Assembly: GCF_001421565.1 (NCBI RefSeq)
Contig: NZ_LMKQ01000002.1
Coordinates: 62,001-126,000, forward strand
DNA: 64,000 nt
Origin: Agromyces sp. Leaf222
GTDB lineage: Bacteria; Actinomycetota; Actinomycetes; Actinomycetales; Microbacteriaceae
Direction: 5' to 3'
In this document: piece by piece, positions 4,340 to 61,504 of the stretch
How the letters are laid out: the number at the start of each line of letters is the position of its first letter
Numbering within the stretch: position 1 is the stretch's first letter
The notes under the pieces: model-generated
Seen by the model: only the letters and a program-made list of their open reading frames with translations
What the model was told of the DNA's origin: nothing
Database searches by the model: none
Program-made: the position numbers and the translations under genes

Positions 4340-6439
4340 ATGATCACGATCCTGCCGAGCTACATCGAGGGCGCGTGGTGGACTCCGGATGCCGCGGGGT
4401 CGCCCGATGCGGCACCCGCGACCGAGGTGCGCGACGCGTCGACCGGCGAGGTCGTGGCGCGGGTCTCGACCGCCGGCCTCGACCACGGCGCCGCGCTCGA
4501 GTACGCGCGCACCGTCGGGCAGCGATCGCTCGGCGCCCTGACCTTCCACCAGCGGGCCGTGGTGCTGAAGCAGATGGCCCTCGCGCTCACCGAGCGCAAG
4601 CAGGAGCTCTACGAGCTGTCGAGCCGCACGGGCGCCACGAAGCAGGACTCGTGGGTCGACATCGACGGCGGCATCGGCGTGCTCTTCGCCTACTCGTCGA
4701 AGGGTCGCCGCGAGCTGCCGAATTCGCAGGTGTACGTCGACGGCGGTGTCGAGCCGCTCTCGAAGGACGGCTCGTTCCTCGGGCGGCACATCTACACGCG
4801 CCTGCCGGGCGTGGCCGTGCAGATCAACGCCTTCAACTTCCCGGTGTGGGGCTCGCTCGAGAAGTTCGCGCCCGCGTTCCTCGCGGGGGTGCCCAGCCTC
4901 GTCAAGCCCGCGACGCCGACCGGATACCTCGCCGAGGCGTTCGTGCGCATCCTCGTGGAGTCCGGGCTGCTGCCCGAGGGGTCGCTGCAACTCGTCTCGG
5001 GCAGCGTGCCCGACCTCTTCGACCACCTGCGGCTCGGCGACCTCGTCGCCTTCACCGGCTCGGCCTCGACGGCCGAGCGGCTGCGCGCGAACGACTCGGT
5101 GCAGACCGGCGGCGTGCGGTTCACGAGCGAGACCGACTCGATCAACGCCTCCGTGCTCGGTCCGGATGCCGTCGCCGGCACGCCGGAGTTCGACGCGTAC
5201 GTGAAGCAGCTCGTCGCCGAGATGACCACGAAGGCGGGGCAGAAGTGCACCGCGATCCGCCGGGCCGTTGTGCCCGCGGCATCCGTCGATGGGGTGATCG
5301 AGGCGGTGCGGGCGCGCATCGCCGAACGCGTCGTGATCGGCGACCCGCGGGTCGACGGCGTGACCATGGGCCCGCTCGCGTCGCTCGAGCAGCGCGACGA
5401 GGTGCTGCGCCAGGTGCGACGGCTCGCCGGTGAGGGCGGCGAGGTCGTGATCGGCTCCACCGAAGCGCCGAGCGTGCGGCTCGCCGACGGCTCGACGGGT
5501 GAAGCCTCCGACGGCGCGTTCGTCGAACCCGTCATGCTGCGGTTCGCGGATGCCGCGAGCCCCGCCCTGCACGAGGTCGAGGCGTTCGGGCCGGTGACCT
5601 CGATCGTCGGCTACGAGACCGTCGACGAGGCGGTGCGGCTCGTGGCACTCGGCGGTGGATCGCTCGTCACGAGCGTCGCGACGCACGACCCCGCGGTCGC
5701 CGTGGCGCTCGCCTCGGGCATCGCGGCCTACAACGGCCGACTGCTGCTGCTCGACCGCGACGACGCGCGCACCTCGACCGGCCACGGCTCGCCGCTGCCG
5801 AACCTCGTGCACGGTGGTCCGGGTCGTGCGGGCGGCGGCGAGGAGCTCGGCGGCATCCGCGCGGTGCTGCATCACATGCAGCGCACCGCGGTGCAGGGTT
5901 CGCCCGAGATGCTCACGGCCCTCACGGGCGTGTGGCATGCCGGCGCGACGTCGACCCCGTATGCCGACGCCGGCGAACCGCACCCGTTCCGCAAGTCGCT
6001 CGCCGAGCTGCGCATCGGCGACCAGGTCGTGTCGGGTTCGCGCACCGTGACGCTCGAGGACATCGAGACGTTCGCGCACTTCACCGGCGACACGTTCTAC
6101 GCCCACATGGACGAGGCCTCGGCCGCGGCCAACCCGTTCTTCCCTGGCCGGGTCGCGCACGGGTACCTGCTCGTGTCGTGGGCGGCCGGCCTCTTCGTCG
6201 ACGCCGCGCCCGGCCCGGTGCTCGCGAACTCCGGACTCGAGAACCTGCGCTTCGTGACGCCGGTCTCGCCGGGCGACTCGATTCGCGTCGAGCTCACGGC
6301 GAAGCAGATCACGCCGCGCGAGACCGACGAGTACGGCGAGGTGCGCTGGGACGCCGTGCTGCGCAACCAGCGCGACGAGCTCGTGGCCAGCTACGACGTG
6401 CTGACCCTCGTGGCGAAGGAGCTCGAGCCGGCGGCCTAG
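4340..6439 (+). CDS. paaZ: Bifunctional oxepin-CoA hydrolase / 3-oxo-5,6-dehydrosuberyl-CoA semialdehyde dehydrogenase
   Basis: A 699-residue two-domain enzyme of the length expected for PaaZ. Residues about 1-520 form an aldehyde dehydrogenase: INAFNFPVWG, AFTGSASTAERL, the catalytic cysteine in KAGQKCTAIRR, and EAFGPVTSIVGY. Residues about 550-690 form a MaoC-like (R)-hydratase with HFTGDTFYAHMDEA and NPFFPGRVAHGYLL, which opens the oxepin ring. The product is then oxidised with NADP+. It is preceded by AAAGG before an ATG. The fused domains indicate the aerobic CoA-epoxide route rather than the split version seen in some bacteria. Confidence 0.95.
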   Translation: MITILPSYIEGAWWTPDAAGSPDAAPATEVRDASTGEVVARVSTAGLDHGAALEYARTVGQRSLGALTFHQRAVVLKQMALALTERKQELYELSSRTGATKQDSWVDIDGGIGVLFAYSSKGRRELPNSQVYVDGGVEPLSKDGSFLGRHIYTRLPGVAVQINAFNFPVWGSLEKFAPAFLAGVPSLVKPATPTGYLAEAFVRILVESGLLPEGSLQLVSGSVPDLFDHLRLGDLVAFTGSASTAERLRANDSVQTGGVRFTSETDSINASVLGPDAVAGTPEFDAYVKQLVAEMTTKAGQKCTAIRRAVVPAASVDGVIEAVRARIAERVVIGDPRVDGVTMGPLASLEQRDEVLRQVRRLAGEGGEVVIGSTEAPSVRLADGSTGEASDGAFVEPVMLRFADAASPALHEVEAFGPVTSIVGYETVDEAVRLVALGGGSLVTSVATHDPAVAVALASGIAAYNGRLLLLDRDDARTSTGHGSPLPNLVHGGPGRAGGGEELGGIRAVLHHMQRTAVQGSPEMLTALTGVWHAGATSTPYADAGEPHPFRKSLAELRIGDQVVSGSRTVTLEDIETFAHFTGDTFYAHMDEASAAANPFFPGRVAHGYLLVSWAAGLFVDAAPGPVLANSGLENLRFVTPVSPGDSIRVELTAKQITPRETDEYGEVRWDAVLRNQRDELVASYDVLTLVAKELEPAA

Positions 6440-54908: not shown

Positions 54909-56677
54909 GCGGCGCATTCGACGTCGTCGAGGCGTCGATCGCCGACCTGCGGGCCGCCCTCGAGTCGGGCCGCGTCACCGCGGTCGAGCTGCTCGACGCC
55001 TACCTCGCCCGCATCGCGGCGTACGACGACCCCGAGACGGCGACCGCGCTGAACGCGCTCGTCGTCATGAACCCCGACGCACGGGCCGACGCGCTCGCCT
55101 CCGACGCGCGCCGTGCGAGCGGCGACGTGCGCGGACCGCTCGACGGCATCCCGTACACGGCCAAGGACAGCTACCTCGCACGCGGACTCACCGCCGCGGC
55201 CGGTTCGCCGGCCTTCGAGCACCTCGTCGCCCAGCGCGACGCCTTCACGATCGAGCGGCTCCGCGGCGCCGGCGCCGTGCTGATCGGCCTCACGAACATG
55301 CCGCCGATGGCGAACGGCGGCATGCAGCGCGGCGTCTACGGCCGCGCCGAGAGCCCGTACAACTCGGACTTCCTCACCGCCGCCTTCGGCTCGGGCTCCT
55401 CGAACGGGTCGGGCACCGCGACGGCGGCCTCGTTCGCGGCGTTCGGCCTCGGCGAGGAGACCTGGTCCTCTGGCCGAGCGCCCGCGTCGAACAACGCGCT
55501 CTGCGCCTACACCCCGTCGCGCGGCGTGATCTCGGTGCGCGGCAACTGGCCGCTCGTGCCCACCATGGACGTCGTCGTGCCGCACACCCGCACCATGGCC
55601 GACCTGTTCGAGGTGCTCGACGTGATCGTCGCCGACGACGCCGAGACCCGAGGCGACTTCTGGCGCGTGCAGCCCTGGGTGTCGATTCCGGCCTCCTCCG
55701 AGGTGCGCCCCGACTCCTATGTCGCGCTCTCGGCGACGGATGCCGCTGGCGCGACGGATGCCGCGGGCGGGCGTGCCGCGTCGGCGCGCGCCGTGCTCGC
55801 CGGCCGTCGCCTCGGCATTCCGCGCATGTACGTGAACGCCGATCCCGAGGCCGGCACGGCCGAGCCCGGACGGACCCCCGGCATCGGCGGATCCACCGGG
55901 CGGCGCATCGAGACCCGCGTCTCGGTCGTGGAGCTCTGGGAGGCGGCGCGCCGCGACCTCGAGGCCGCCGGCGCCGAGGTCGTCGAGGTCGACTTCCCGG
56001 TGGTGTCGAACTACGAGGGCGACCGTATCGGCGCCCCGACGATCGCGACCCGTGGAATCGTCTCACCGGAGTACCTGCGCCGCGAGATCGTCGACCTCTC
56101 GGCGTGGGCGTGGAACGACTTCCTCGACGCCAACGGCGACCCCGCCCTGCGCGCGCTCGCCGAGGTGGACGGCCCGCGCATCTTCCCGCACCCGGAGGGC
56201 TCGCTGCCCGATCGGTATGCGGGCTTCGACGACGACATCGCCGAGTACCCCGAGTGGGCGCGCACGCACCCCGGGGCGACCTTCGACGACATGCCCGAGC
56301 TCGAGGACGGCCTGCGCGGGCTCGAGGAGACCCGCCGGGTCGACCTCGAGGCGTGGATGGACGGCCTCGGTCTCGACGCCGTCGTCTTCCCGGCCGTCGC
56401 CGACGTCGGCCCGGCCGACATGGACGTGAACGAGGCATCCGCCGATCTCGGCTGGCGCAACGGCGTGTGGGTCGCGAACGGCAACCTCGTGCCGCGGCAC
56501 CTGGGCATCCCGACGGTCACCGTGCCCATGGGCACCATGGGGGACATCCGGATGCCGGTCGGCCTCACGTTCGCCGGCCGCGCCTACGACGACACGGCGC
56601 TGCTGCGCGTGGCCGCGGCCTTCGAGGCGACGGGAACGCGCCGCACGGAGCCGCCGCGCACCCCGCGCCTCGCCTGA
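54905..56677 (+). CDS. Amidase signature family hydrolase
   Basis: A 590-residue amidase, longer than the usual 450-500. The catalytic Lys lies in GIPYTAKDSYLARG and the Ser-cisSer region is GSGSSNGSGTATAASF followed by FGLGEETWSSGR. The C-terminal part ends GIPTVTVPMGT and TFAGRAYDDTALLRVAAAFEATG. It hydrolyses an amide or carbamoyl group, so it could act on the carbamoyl product of the previous enzyme. An extra domain-like segment lies at residues about 270-310, rich in Ala and Asp. It is the last gene of the TetR-controlled operon. Confidence 0.88.
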   Translation: MSGAFDVVEASIADLRAALESGRVTAVELLDAYLARIAAYDDPETATALNALVVMNPDARADALASDARRASGDVRGPLDGIPYTAKDSYLARGLTAAAGSPAFEHLVAQRDAFTIERLRGAGAVLIGLTNMPPMANGGMQRGVYGRAESPYNSDFLTAAFGSGSSNGSGTATAASFAAFGLGEETWSSGRAPASNNALCAYTPSRGVISVRGNWPLVPTMDVVVPHTRTMADLFEVLDVIVADDAETRGDFWRVQPWVSIPASSEVRPDSYVALSATDAAGATDAAGGRAASARAVLAGRRLGIPRMYVNADPEAGTAEPGRTPGIGGSTGRRIETRVSVVELWEAARRDLEAAGAEVVEVDFPVVSNYEGDRIGAPTIATRGIVSPEYLRREIVDLSAWAWNDFLDANGDPALRALAEVDGPRIFPHPEGSLPDRYAGFDDDIAEYPEWARTHPGATFDDMPELEDGLRGLEETRRVDLEAWMDGLGLDAVVFPAVADVGPADMDVNEASADLGWRNGVWVANGNLVPRHLGIPTVTVPMGTMGDIRMPVGLTFAGRAYDDTALLRVAAAFEATGTRRTEPPRTPRLA

Positions 56678-56692
56678 CGGCAGGTGATTCGC

Positions 56693-56723
56693 CTCGAGCC
56701 CGCTCGTTCAGAGCGGGCTCGAG
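56693..56723. terminator. Bidirectional hairpin terminator with embedded stop codon
   Basis: CTCGAGCCCGCTC (56693-56705) and GAGCGGGCTCGAG (56711-56723) form a perfect 13-bp stem with a five-base loop. The stop codon of the leftward gene lies at 56708-56710, so its last codons encode part of the stem. It separates the convergent amidase and RHH genes. Confidence 0.75.
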
Positions 56724-57226
56724 CATTCGACCGACCGTGCGAGTCGCTCGGGCGCGAACATCGCGAGGGACGTCATCGAGGTGACCTCGACGCGGACGCC
56801 GAGCATGCGGCTCGCGATGCCCGAGAGCACCGAGGCAGCCTCGCCGCCCATCATGATGTCGGTCTCGGCGAGCAGATCGATCGCCTCGTCGGCGGTGCCG
56901 TCGTCGCTGCCGCTGTGGTCGTCGGAGCCGACGGCCCCGGCCACCCCGGCTTTCGCGAACGGTGCGATCGGATCGAGCACCCGCACGTTCGACGCACCGT
57001 GCCTCGCGAACGCCCGGAGCACCTCGTCCCTGCGCAACCGAAGGCGCTCGCGCGGAGAGAGCTCCGAGAAGCCCGGCCGGTCGGTGGTGAGCGCCGGCAG
57101 CCGTGCCTCGGCGTATGCGGCCACGGCATCGGCCATGACGGACCTCTTCGTCGACTCCATCAGATGCGCGAGCTGGGCGACGAGCCGAGCGGTGTCCGCA
57201 TCGACCCTGATGGCTTCGGCGACCAT
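56708..57226 (-). CDS. Ribbon-helix-helix protein fused to a degenerate nucleotidyltransferase (MNT-like) domain
   Basis: A 172-residue protein. Residues 1-43 fit an RHH DNA-binding fold (EAIRVDADT strand, ARLVAQLAHLME helix, STKRSVMADAVAAYAEAR helix). Residues 60-172 resemble a minimal nucleotidyltransferase: RDEVLRAFARHGASNVRV, then where GSVARG is expected the sequence reads LDPIAPFAKAG, an Asp/Gly/Ser insert (100-112), EAIDLLAETD in place of SDIDL, and LGVRVEVTSMTSLAMF. It has lost key residues, so catalysis is doubtful. AAAGGAGG is an excellent site before the ATG at 57226. Upstream are 8-bp iterons and a palindrome. The MNT resemblance is inference. Confidence 0.7.
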   Translation of the reverse strand: MVAEAIRVDADTARLVAQLAHLMESTKRSVMADAVAAYAEARLPALTTDRPGFSELSPRERLRLRRDEVLRAFARHGASNVRVLDPIAPFAKAGVAGAVGSDDHSGSDDGTADEAIDLLAETDIMMGGEAASVLSGIASRMLGVRVEVTSMTSLAMFAPERLARSVECSSPL

Positions 57227-57247
57227 CGGCCCTCCTTTCGGGAGTTT

Positions 57248-57291
57248 CGTTCTGAGAACGTGTTGCAAAGTTGCAAAGTTGCAAAGTTGCG
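57248..57291. promoter_or_regulatory. Iterons and palindrome in front of the RHH gene
   Basis: CGTTCT-G-AGAACG (57248-57260) is a perfect palindrome. Directly after it, GTTGCAAA occurs three times in tandem with a partial fourth at 57262-57291. The run is strikingly AT-rich for this genome. RHH proteins bind short direct repeats near their own promoters, so autoregulation is likely. The repeats start 35 bases before the start codon. Confidence 0.75.
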
Positions 57292-57475
57292 TGACTTCGT
57301 GAGGGAAACTCTTCACCGCGGATCGCTCCGAAGGGGAACGTCGGTCCGCCAAGGACGACCTGCCGCCGTGCAGGCGGTCCTGTGGAGGAGCGGTGGCGGA
57401 GCATGCGGGTGTCGGCAGGTGCGGTGGCGGAGCAGGAGGGGTGGCGGGTGAGCGCGGGCGCGCAGGCGGCGCGGG

Positions 57476-59071
57476 TCAGCCGACGGTGACGTCGCGCGAG
57501 TCGAGACCGGTGGCGCCGTCGGGCACGACGCCCTGCCTGGCCGAGGTCTGCACCTCGCCGTCGGCGCCGGTCGCCCGCACGCGCAGCGTGTGCGAGCCCG
57601 AGGTCGCGTCCCAGTCGAACCGCCACTGCACCCAGGTGTCCTCCGAGATGGCCGTGGCGAGCGTCGCCGGGAGCCACGGGCCGTCGTCGACCTGCACGTC
57701 GACCGCGGCGACGCCGACGTGCTGCTGCCAGGCGACGCCGGCGACGACGACGGGTCCGGCCGACAGCGACTGCCCCGACCGCGGCACGTCGATGCGCGAC
57801 GAGAGCTTGATCGGTCCGCGCTCGCTCCACCCGCGATCGGTCCAGTAGGCGGATGCCGCGTCGAACCGGGTGACCTCGAGCTCCGTCACCCACTTCGTCG
57901 CCGACACGTACCCGTAGAGCCCGGGCACGACCATGCGCACGGGGAACCCGTGCTCCGCCGGCAGCGGCTCGCCGTTCATGCCGACCGCGAGGATCGCCTC
58001 GCGGTCGTCCTGCAGCACCTCGAGCGGCGTCGAGGCCGTGAACCCGTCGATGCTGCGCGAGAGCACCATGTCGGCGTCCGCACCGGGCACGGCCCGCGCG
58101 AGCAGTTCACGGATCGGGTAGCCCAGCCACACCGCGTTGCCGATGAGCGTGCCGCCCACCTCGTTCGAGACGCACGCGAGCGTCGTCACCGACTCCTCGA
58201 GCGGGAGCGAGATCAGCTCCTCCCAGGTGAGCGTCACCTCCTGCTCGACGTCGCCGTGGATGCGCAGGCTCCAGTCCGCCGGCTCGACGGCCGGCACCGC
58301 GAGCGCGGTGTCGATGCGGTAGAACTCCGCGTTCGGCGTGACGATCGGCGTGAGCCCCTCGAGGTCGAGTTCCGCCCCAGGAGGTATCGACGCGGTGGTC
58401 GTCGGCACCGGCAACCGGATCGCCTGGCGCGCCGCCGTCACTGCGCGGGAGCCGGCCTGCAGGGCGTACCCGCCCACGGCGGCGAGGACGCCGATCGCGG
58501 TGGCGCCGCCCGCCCAGAGGAGGAACCGGCGACGCTCGATCGCGGGCGTGCCCGCGGCATCCGCTCGTCCTTCGCCCGCTCCATCGACCTCGGCCGCGCC
58601 ATCCGTCGTCGGAAGTCGCCGGATCAGCAGCCGAAGCGCGACGACGCCCGCGATCGCGGCCAGCGCCGAGGGCGCGAACGCGAGCATCGACGCGTTCGCC
58701 CTCGTCACCGAGGCGAGCACGCCGACCCCGCCGATCGCCCAGATCACCACCTGGCCCCACGGCGGCCGGCGGGCCTCGAGCACGCCGGCGAGGCCGGCGA
58801 CGGCCAGCAGCACCAGCGCGATGCCCACCAGCAGGGCGACCTTGTCGGCCGTGCCGAACAGGGCGATCGCGGCATCCTTCGCCCACGGGGGAGCGAGGTC
58901 GATCATCATCGAGCCGACCACCGCGAACGGACTCGAGGCCGACGCCAGCAGTGCGGCGGCGAGCTCGCCGACGCCGGCGGCCACGACGACCGAGGCCACC
59001 CCGGCGGCGGCGGGCAGCAGCCACCGCGTCGACGTCCGGACGGAGCGGCCGGCGGTCTCGGTCTGCGGCAT
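57476..59071 (-). CDS. Membrane-anchored molybdopterin-dependent oxidoreductase (sulfite oxidase family)
   Basis: A 531-residue protein. Four or five N-terminal helices span residues about 15-160, followed by an internal RRRFLLWAGGATAIG segment that may act as a Tat-like second anchor. The Moco domain starts near residue 250 (FYRIDTALAVPAVEPADWSL) with LTWEELISLPLEESVTTLACVSNEVGG holding the Mo-ligand cysteine in LACVSNEVGG, then PAEHGFPVRMVVPGLYGY and KWVTELEV. A Mo-co dimerisation beta domain ends the protein. It may oxidise or reduce a small sulfur or nitrogen oxide outside the membrane. Substrate unknown. Confidence 0.88.
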   Translation of the reverse strand: MPQTETAGRSVRTSTRWLLPAAAGVASVVVAAGVGELAAALLASASSPFAVVGSMMIDLAPPWAKDAAIALFGTADKVALLVGIALVLLAVAGLAGVLEARRPPWGQVVIWAIGGVGVLASVTRANASMLAFAPSALAAIAGVVALRLLIRRLPTTDGAAEVDGAGEGRADAAGTPAIERRRFLLWAGGATAIGVLAAVGGYALQAGSRAVTAARQAIRLPVPTTTASIPPGAELDLEGLTPIVTPNAEFYRIDTALAVPAVEPADWSLRIHGDVEQEVTLTWEELISLPLEESVTTLACVSNEVGGTLIGNAVWLGYPIRELLARAVPGADADMVLSRSIDGFTASTPLEVLQDDREAILAVGMNGEPLPAEHGFPVRMVVPGLYGYVSATKWVTELEVTRFDAASAYWTDRGWSERGPIKLSSRIDVPRSGQSLSAGPVVVAGVAWQQHVGVAAVDVQVDDGPWLPATLATAISEDTWVQWRFDWDATSGSHTLRVRATGADGEVQTSARQGVVPDGATGLDSRDVTVG

Positions 59072-59184
59072 GCGCACAGCGTACGCTCGCGGGCTGTGCA
59101 CGGGCGGCGAGTTCGCGCCGGTGCGGATGTCGGCAGCCCCTGCCAGAATCGAGAACCGCGGGCACGCCGCACGGAAGGGGCACC

Positions 59185-61504
<2,320 letters not shown>

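Follow-up and report, generated by a model that had tools for sequence, protein, structure and literature searches.

The window (the whole 64,000-nucleotide stretch of Agromyces sp. Leaf222 that was analysed) was found to contain a gene for a small protein, P0002, with a short tandem array immediately upstream, and the question raised by this locus is what such a protein does with such an array. In the preliminary description, P0002 seemed to be a ribbon-helix-helix (RHH) module joined to a catalytically dead MNT-like domain, and it was suggested to be a self-contained new kind of regulator or the relic of a toxin-antitoxin pair. Its open reading frame, ribosome-binding site, array and palindrome were confirmed, and the locus was found to contain the following features.

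complement(56708..57226), minus strand: coding sequence of P0002, 172 amino acids plus stop, with the ATG at 57226 (open reading frame, profile matches and family alignment)
P0002, residues ~4-45: RHH DNA-binding domain; residues ~60-172: degenerate MNT-like domain (profile matches and family alignment)
57231..57238, minus strand: ribosome-binding site AAAGGAGG, from the sequence
57241..57260, plus strand: arm motif GGAGTTTCGTTCTGAGAACG (right arm), 1 nt from the array and inverted relative to the other arm
57248-57260: palindrome CGTTCTGAGAACG, read from the sequence, inside the arm GGAGTTTCGTTCTGAGAACG
57262..57290, no strand assigned: 8-bp tandem array GTTGCAAAGTTGCAAAGTTGCAAAGTTGC, that is (GTTGCAAA)3.6
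57293..57312, minus strand: second arm motif AGAGTTTCCCTCACGAAGTC (left arm), 2 nt from the array
57476..59221, minus strand: preceding gene, molybdopterin oxidoreductase (PF00174, 151.9 bits)

The array unit was found to read GCAACTTT in the direction of the gene, in 3.6 copies upstream of it. The right arm was strong, scoring 14.7 against a control 99th percentile of 8.2, with the window element itself among the 76 elements from which the arm motif was built; the left arm scored 6.5 against a control 95th percentile of 6.6 and was weak alone. A 17-mer of two window units was found to occur 18 times at six places in the strain's own 4.43-Mb genome and its reversed control 0 times, which excludes an origin of the window array by chance. 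The 21-mer of the array was found in 1/60 genomes searched, the strain's own.

The RHH-MNT family and its neighbourhood

The RHH domain was recognised from the family rather than from any one sequence. The profile of 29 members was found to match the CopG-type chains 6iya and 7etr weakly (E 0.04-0.05) and 2gpe PutA at E 1.1, followed by the matches of single sequences, in which 4/20 members matched RHH_1 (best E 0.015) and 8/20 matched PSK_trans_fac (best E 0.007). The signal, weak per sequence and consistent across the set, points to membership of the RHH fold.

Over its positions 74-159 the 29-member profile was also found to match 1wot (E 6e-5), which is annotated as a 'putative minimal nucleotidyltransferase', and the hhalign comparison of the degenerate profile with eight intact RHH-MNT relatives gave a probability of 99.5 (E 3e-22), which argues for a fold or sequence homologous to MNT / NTP_transf_2. 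P0002 alone matched zero Pfam families at E up to 10; its two matches in NCBIfam were both far under the cut-off, and its match to PADLOC PDC-S09 (E 0.0014) covered 25 residues only. The same model was matched by the intact L203 at E 4e-26 and by the intermediate L199 at E 4e-8, and PDC-S09 may be read as an MNT model from the match of L203, which itself contained PF01909 (44.5 bits). The domain pairing of the preliminary description is supported by the matches to 6iya, 7etr and 1wot and by the hhalign comparison.

The catalytic GS...D.D motif was absent, as read by eye, from P0002 and 20 aligned members, in which the active-site hairpin of MNT was replaced by a variable linker according to the family alignment. 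The intact relatives (L192, L203, L045 and others) were found to contain GSVARGD..SD.DLLVD in 8/8, and the intermediates L199, L200, L190 and L034 kept part of the motif region, again by eye. In a tree from which the DNA-reading strand had been left out, with the intact group as root by the analyst's choice, the intermediates were found to branch before the clade of all core members. The supposed loss of GS and of the first Asp agrees with the intact relatives (GSVARGD..SDIDLLVD) as well as with the intermediates. In L097, L107, L187 and L189, long and variable Ala/Gly/Pro/Ser repeats were found in the RHH-MNT linker or in place of the active-site hairpin.

The dN/dS among L095, L104, L105 and L179 was 0.17-0.20 for the whole gene and 0.15-0.19 for the C-terminal part, and the dead MNT domain is therefore kept by selection within this subgroup; the values are limited to close relatives of the own-genome paralogue, and P0002 had no close-enough orthologue among the loci compared.

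A search with P0002 at E 0.001 was found to retrieve relatives in 18/60 genomes, all 18 of the same genus, followed by a search with a 20-member profile at E 1e-5 that matched 35/60 Agromyces genomes and established a real gene family. Of the 35 matching genomes, by the analyst's reading, 28 contained degenerate members, and the other 7 had nothing but intact or partial ones. The counted sets comprise 33 degenerate and 8 intact RHH-MNT members; L188 (G076), with its two halves read in different frames, was left out of the 33, the divergent L202, L210, L212, L213 and L215 were placed in neither set, and the weak matches G081:C4 (nothing at E 1e-4 on re-reading) and G076:C26 stand outside the counts. 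No description of such arrays or of the protein family was found in the literature listings searched, mostly without the genus name.

The immediate neighbours of the P0002 gene were the molybdopterin oxidoreductase and, on the other side, an amidase-like gene (read by eye); no HEPN gene was found among them, nor any other adjacent toxin gene at the window locus, and the earlier observation that P0002 lacks a HEPN partner was borne out for these two neighbours. No ParA-like gene was noticed in the open reading frames read by eye near the window gene and its paralogue. The C-terminal motif of the window molybdopterin oxidoreductase was found within 450 nt upstream of 10/33 degenerate family genes. 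The own-genome paralogue (L095:4165-4620, unit CGGCACTC) was located with moa-like genes (as read by the analyst) on one side and nar genes, identified by Pfam as narH and narI, on the other, and a link to molybdenum is possible, with the paralogue near moa-like and nar genes and the window gene after a molybdopterin enzyme.

Upstream arrays and their match to the resident protein

A strict 8-bp array was found at most 450 bp upstream of 23/33 degenerate members as against 0/8 intact RHH-MNT members. Among the 10 degenerate members that failed the strict test, five contained imperfect TCCACA-type arrays, followed by L180, L186 and L108 with short or interrupted CGGYAC repeats, L111 with 106 bp upstream only, and L113 with no array visible upstream. 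The divergent L202, L210, L212, L213 and L215 showed no 8-bp array upstream. The operator units were found to be as follows, with an AC step common to those listed.

GCAACTTT: window gene
GCTACATC: L096
GCCACATC: L097
CGGCACTC: L095, L104, L105, L179
CGGTACTT: L109, L110, L112
CGGCACTT: L106, L107, L182
CGGAACTT: L184
GGGCACTT: L187
ACCGCACM: L199 (register ambiguous)
TCCACAAG-like: L098-L102

The iterons belong to the P0002 gene, and arrays stand upstream of most degenerate homologues. Their expected conservation held for the presence of 8-bp arrays (at 23/33) and failed for the unit itself, which differs between lineages.

This variation tended to follow the resident protein. TGCAACTT was found in 1/60 genomes, the strain's own. 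Among the 60 genomes, G015 was alone in having pure GCTACATC arrays and G028 in having pure GCCACATC arrays, each being the operator unit there. Arrays of CGGYACTY were found in 11/12 genomes with a degenerate K-type protein as against 6/25 without one (Fisher p=2e-4), with the classes assigned by the analyst and the family gene's own operator counted as an array; each of the 11 K-type genomes also contained such an array elsewhere than at the family gene. A scan of the glutaminase loci for 8-bp tandem repeats of whatever unit found AC-type arrays at 8/30 (30 loci examined of 44 glutaminase matches). All of these (8/8) belonged to the same class as the operator of the genome concerned (permutation p=2.8e-4), at a locus picked since arrays had already been seen there in G000 and G009 and with classes that were the analyst's. 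The 22/30 loci without an AC-type array included those of protein-bearing genomes, e.g. G026, G008 and G015; among these remaining loci G062 contained other repeats only, and 21 contained no repeat at all.

Arrays were also found apart from a matching protein. The genomes G018, G021 and G034 contained CGGYACTY arrays and no family match below E 0.09, the broader profile included, and the array of G034 reached 9.8 copies; G007 and G020 contained only partial family matches near E 1e-6, and in G020 the match overlapped the XRE-MNT gene. Arrays of GCCACTTC were found with no matching operator read in G030 (C1:754935, C3:586334, 595569, 616431, 722098) and G036 (C1:227966), followed by an array of GCTACTTC in G082 (C28:20711) and CCACA repeats in G065, G074 and G075; in phase, GCCACTTC is one base from the CGGCACTT of L107 in G030. 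The genome G013 contained CGGYAC arrays without a K-type protein.

A candidate code was read from the DNA-reading strand. At base 3, G accompanies [ILVM]K and C accompanies [IV]R; base 4 corresponds to the preceding residue, being T for P, C for S/T and A for A. The exceptions were L096, L108 and L199, if the register is right, and L188 was mixed. The near-sisters L103 (KPIK, CGGTAC) and L106 (KTIK, CGGCAC) were found to switch residue and base together, and the changes along the tree (same/opposite/none) were about 2/0/1 for P/T, 2/0/1 for R/C and 1/0/0 for A/A. Since the tree-corrected covariation of residue and base was not significant, with too few independent changes, the code is a lead only.

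Two of the alternative explanations bear on these arrays. The first would make them unrelated VNTRs whose upstream location is a coincidence, and other tandem repeats were indeed found upstream of L185, L186, L112 and L111, while a period-8 run was present in 9% of random 450-mers from the same array-rich loci; the arrays are nevertheless period 8 upstream of 23/33 members as against 0-3 of 33 for other periods, and their units match the protein, so that coincidence is hardly credible. In L112, L185 and L186 second, unrelated tandem repeats were found between the array and the gene (GCGGAGGC, GCGTGCAG and the 7-bp CAGGCAA).

The second alternative would have the protein descend from an MNT toxin-antitoxin component, as a relic or derivative in which control of the own promoter persists, with the dispersed arrays as functionless slippage repeats. 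The common ancestry with intact RHH-MNT proteins fits this account, but the missing HEPN gene among the immediate neighbours, the arrays that match the cognate protein classes and carry phased arms, and the purifying selection in one subgroup all speak against it, and it is judged very unlikely. The relic of the preliminary description could at best stand for the origin of the MNT domain.

Dispersed composite elements

The array of the window was not confined to the promoter. In the strain's own genome the exact array was found at six places, followed by a variant array at C2:271689, and the paralogue unit CGGCACTC was found at C2:18669, C2:271467 and C3:193098; putative sites, as judged from sequence, are present both in the protein's own promoter and elsewhere in the replicon, as in RHH partition or organising proteins. 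With its own unit dispersed in composite elements that are mostly intergenic, the protein looks like more than a self-contained single-gene promoter regulator. A 51-aa open reading frame close to the longest array of the strain's own genome was found to resemble the C-terminus of a nearby glycosidase-like gene and is perhaps a partial duplication of it (L012:3217-3372 and 4817-6376).

Among the 60 relatives searched, 37 of which belong to the genus, CGGYACTY arrays were found in 17, all 17 in the genus, with a reversed control of 0. The CCACANNN arrays were found in 8/60 genus genomes, dense in G033, G028, G013, G019 and G029 and few in G065, G074 and G075, and their single matches are weak, the reversed control having matched in G065, G069, G013, G011, G073, G030, G031 and G036. 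The GCYACWTC arrays were found in 5/60 genomes (G015, G028, G030, G036 and G082), with a reversed control matching G015 only (24 matches); these are probably the same arrays, since a GCTACATC array can also satisfy the reversed pattern. With the patterns used, G020 and G034 had a single place each, and the highest numbers, about ten per genome, were reached in G015 and G033. Two TCCACA-type arrays of G033 (C1:974682-974764 and 1280887-1280969) were found to contain a 31-bp higher-order period of three 8-bp units plus 7 bp.

The same gap, with both neighbours homologous, was found to contain different units in different species, the array-flanking genes having been clustered by blastp at 45% identity or more. 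Such pairs were G000:C1:1024759 (TGCAACTT) and G015:C21:186309 (GCTACATC); G033:C1:974682 (CCACAAGT) and both G018:C2:1192824 and G021:C5:86972 (CGGTACTT); G015:C5:17480 (GCTACATC) and G028:C6:92331 (GCCACATC); and G018:C3:352541 (CGGTACTT) and G021:C6:112104 (mixed CGGCACTT and CGGTACTT). The loci that shared one neighbour included YCII, an XRE-MNT gene, the glutaminase and a NUDIX gene.

The 118 site rows comprised 48 tandem, 43 convergent and 21 divergent gaps, followed by 1 inside a called gene and 5 undetermined; the genes were called with the analyst's crude caller, family-gene operators are included and three rows repeat a place, and the counts cover the places read, with array places in G014 (C146), G027 and some others outside them. 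Convergent gaps were enriched, with 40/106 array gaps as against 54/270 other gaps of at least 60 bp at the same loci (p=5e-4, seven glutaminase-derived loci excluded).

These contexts bear on the alternative of an ordinary transcription factor, an autorepressor with a small and perhaps molybdenum-enzyme-linked regulon that carries its operator arrays in promoters. MetJ and NikR are autorepressors of this type. The arrays in the promoters of the family genes themselves, the molybdopterin-oxidoreductase motif just upstream of 10/33 members, the paralogue beside narH/narI and moa-like genes, and some dispersed arrays located 5′ of genes, e.g. YCII (G000, G026) and XRE-MNT (G000, G029), agree with such a regulon. 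The enrichment lies in convergent gaps and not in promoters, however, which weakens a simple promoter regulon; the glutaminase array was found 5′ of the gene in G000 but 3′ of it in the remaining seven genomes, and the array neighbours were functionally mixed by the analyst's reading. A regulon of this kind is considered unlikely.

In six single- or nearly single-contig genomes, 24/27 sites were found in the origin-proximal half relative to dnaA, with one operator (G019) added by hand and two G033 sites of off-type units, and the farthest site lay at 0.58 of the half-chromosome. The origin-side p per genome was 0.0097, 0.037, 0.058, 0.057, 0.45 and 0.33, a modest signal, and the genomes are not independent since positions are inherited. 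An orientation rule of the KOPS kind, the model considered for array direction, was rejected: the six exact own-genome arrays run in the same direction on their contigs, but those of other genomes were mixed.

The elements were found to have a composite layout of arm, 8-bp array and inverted arm, in which the arm motif is about GGGG..TCCGCTCCGGAACC and weak (6 bits). Its total over 76 elements was 720 as against 473 +/- 10 in 20 base-composition shuffles, 41 rows, mostly CCACA-type, having been dropped, and the arms stood 1-3 nt from the array at 42/76 elements on the left and 48/76 on the right. At the CCACA-type sites the best arm position was exactly 4 nt to the left in 12/33 and 1 nt to the right in 12/33, by the analyst's count and with many scores within the control range. 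The arms of the same element were no more complementary than arms across elements (36/70, p=0.99), so that a protein-bound site is likelier than a hairpin. On this pairing result, together with zero Rfam matches at E up to 1 in positions 56500-57600, a hairpin or RNA element was rejected.

The REP/REPIN-RAYT systems resemble the present elements in that short dispersed repeats are tied to one protein family; REPs are palindromic and go with a transposase, whereas arm-array-arm elements with an RHH protein are found here, and the arms are inverted but pair no better within an element than between elements. A related alternative would make the composite elements REP/REPIN- or MITE-like, small mobile or selfish units that spread together with the array. 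The RHH protein would then owe its autoregulation to one captured copy, and gene conversion through the conserved arms would replace arrays and drive their concerted evolution. The intergenic and convergent placement, the lineage-specific amplification, the conserved inverted arms, the arrays with no detectable protein in G018, G021 and G034 and the units without a matching operator would all suit such elements. The copy number is low, however, at about ten places at most in the genomes searched and with the patterns used; positions are shared between species, the arrays match the cognate protein class, and no transposase-like gene tied to the elements was noticed in incidental reading. A mobile origin is rated improbable.

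Proposed role and known systems

The preferred reading has parts of unequal strength. On the sequence evidence, P0002 is very probably an array-binding protein with dispersed cognate sites. Its RHH domain would bind its own 8-bp unit in tandem, with a dimer on each copy by analogy with MetJ and omega. Binding in the promoter of P0002 would result in autoregulation, and the protein would also bind at several dispersed intergenic elements of arm, array and inverted arm, most of which lie in the half of the chromosome nearer the origin. The MNT fold, with its catalysis lost, may have been retained as an oligomerisation or partner module and could so bridge bound copies. The dispersed elements would then most likely anchor or bookmark the chromosome, in the manner of SegB sites, matS or RHH-type parS, and would not act as promoters. 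That P0002 is an autoregulated protein of this SegB/MatP/omega-like kind is an evenly balanced proposal, and an architectural role of the dispersed sites, taken by itself, is plausible at or slightly below an even chance.

The repeat spelling that changes with the protein suggests a fast-evolving lock-and-key marking system, in which the array unit and the RHH specificity would diverge together between species while the element positions are partly retained. In its fullest form, the proposal is a genus-wide chromosome marking in which the RHH-dead-MNT protein would read 8-bp tags in mostly origin-side arm-array-arm elements, the tag spelling would switch by species with two residues of the DNA-reading strand (K/G and R/C at base 3; P/T, S/T-C and A/A at base 4), and the specificity and the dispersed sites would be rewritten together at partly kept positions; this is offered tentatively and is somewhat doubtful as a whole. 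A single-site regulator changes its specificity easily, whereas many dispersed sites should lock the specificity in. The partly shared positions with different units that tend to fit the resident protein would make the evolution of RHH recognition, and the rewriting of a set of sites, testable with natural variants. If the sites organise the chromosome, an actinobacterium would have, on the origin side, its counterpart of MatP or SegB, derived from a retired module of toxin-antitoxin type.

MetJ, an RHH protein, recognises met boxes, which are tandem operator units of 8 bp; it governs the methionine regulon with SAM as corepressor, and its box is palindromic and conserved in sequence. The matS sites are single sites rather than arrays. 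The P0002 family shares with MetJ the 8-bp tandem units and differs from it in the palindromic, conserved box and probably in the SAM corepressor and the met regulon of the latter.

Omega, the ParB of pSM19035, is described as an RHH protein that binds tandem non-palindromic 7-bp repeats, with 7-10 copies per site and one dimer per repeat, and its sites are described as overlapping its own and other promoters, with six plasmid parS at promoters and a ParA partner (PMC9499535). P0002 is similar to it in the combination of an RHH protein with short tandem repeats that include its own promoter, whereas omega has a 7-bp unit, a plasmid and ParA, and P0002 has an 8-bp unit, chromosomal sites, no ParA noticed and a dead MNT domain.

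SegB of the Sulfolobales is reported as an RHH protein whose sites lie ahead of the segB operon as well as elsewhere on the chromosome, with enrichment in one compartment; its 13-bp motif is palindromic, mostly located within genes and well conserved between genera, and its partner SegA is ParA-like (PMC12284271). The likeness to the P0002 family lies in the RHH protein and in the sites at the own operon and scattered with compartment enrichment; unlike SegB, the P0002 family has intergenic 8-bp arrays with a unit that changes between species. MatP of E. coli, an RHH protein, is described with more than 20 dispersed matS sites in one chromosomal region (PMC12756933). It is comparable in having an RHH protein with regionally dispersed sites and different in its terminus region and in its four-helix bundle and coiled coil, where P0002 has the MNT domain.

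The MNT-HEPN system is described as a two-gene module (PMC2701414). With this module and with the solitary RHH-MNT proteins, the intact forms of which were found in the same genus, the P0002 family shares a homologous MNT fold, but it has lost the catalytic motif, gained the tandem arrays and has no HEPN gene as immediate neighbour. A pair of XRE-HTH-MNT and HepT-like genes was found elsewhere in the strain's own genome (L011:5328-6148; G000 C2, ~193.3-194.2 kb), containing PF01909 (48.7 bits) and PF01934 (61.4 bits), with an array of GTTGCAAA 122 bp upstream, and XRE-MNT genes were also found to adjoin arrays in G029 (C5:441551) and G020 (C1:3101231).
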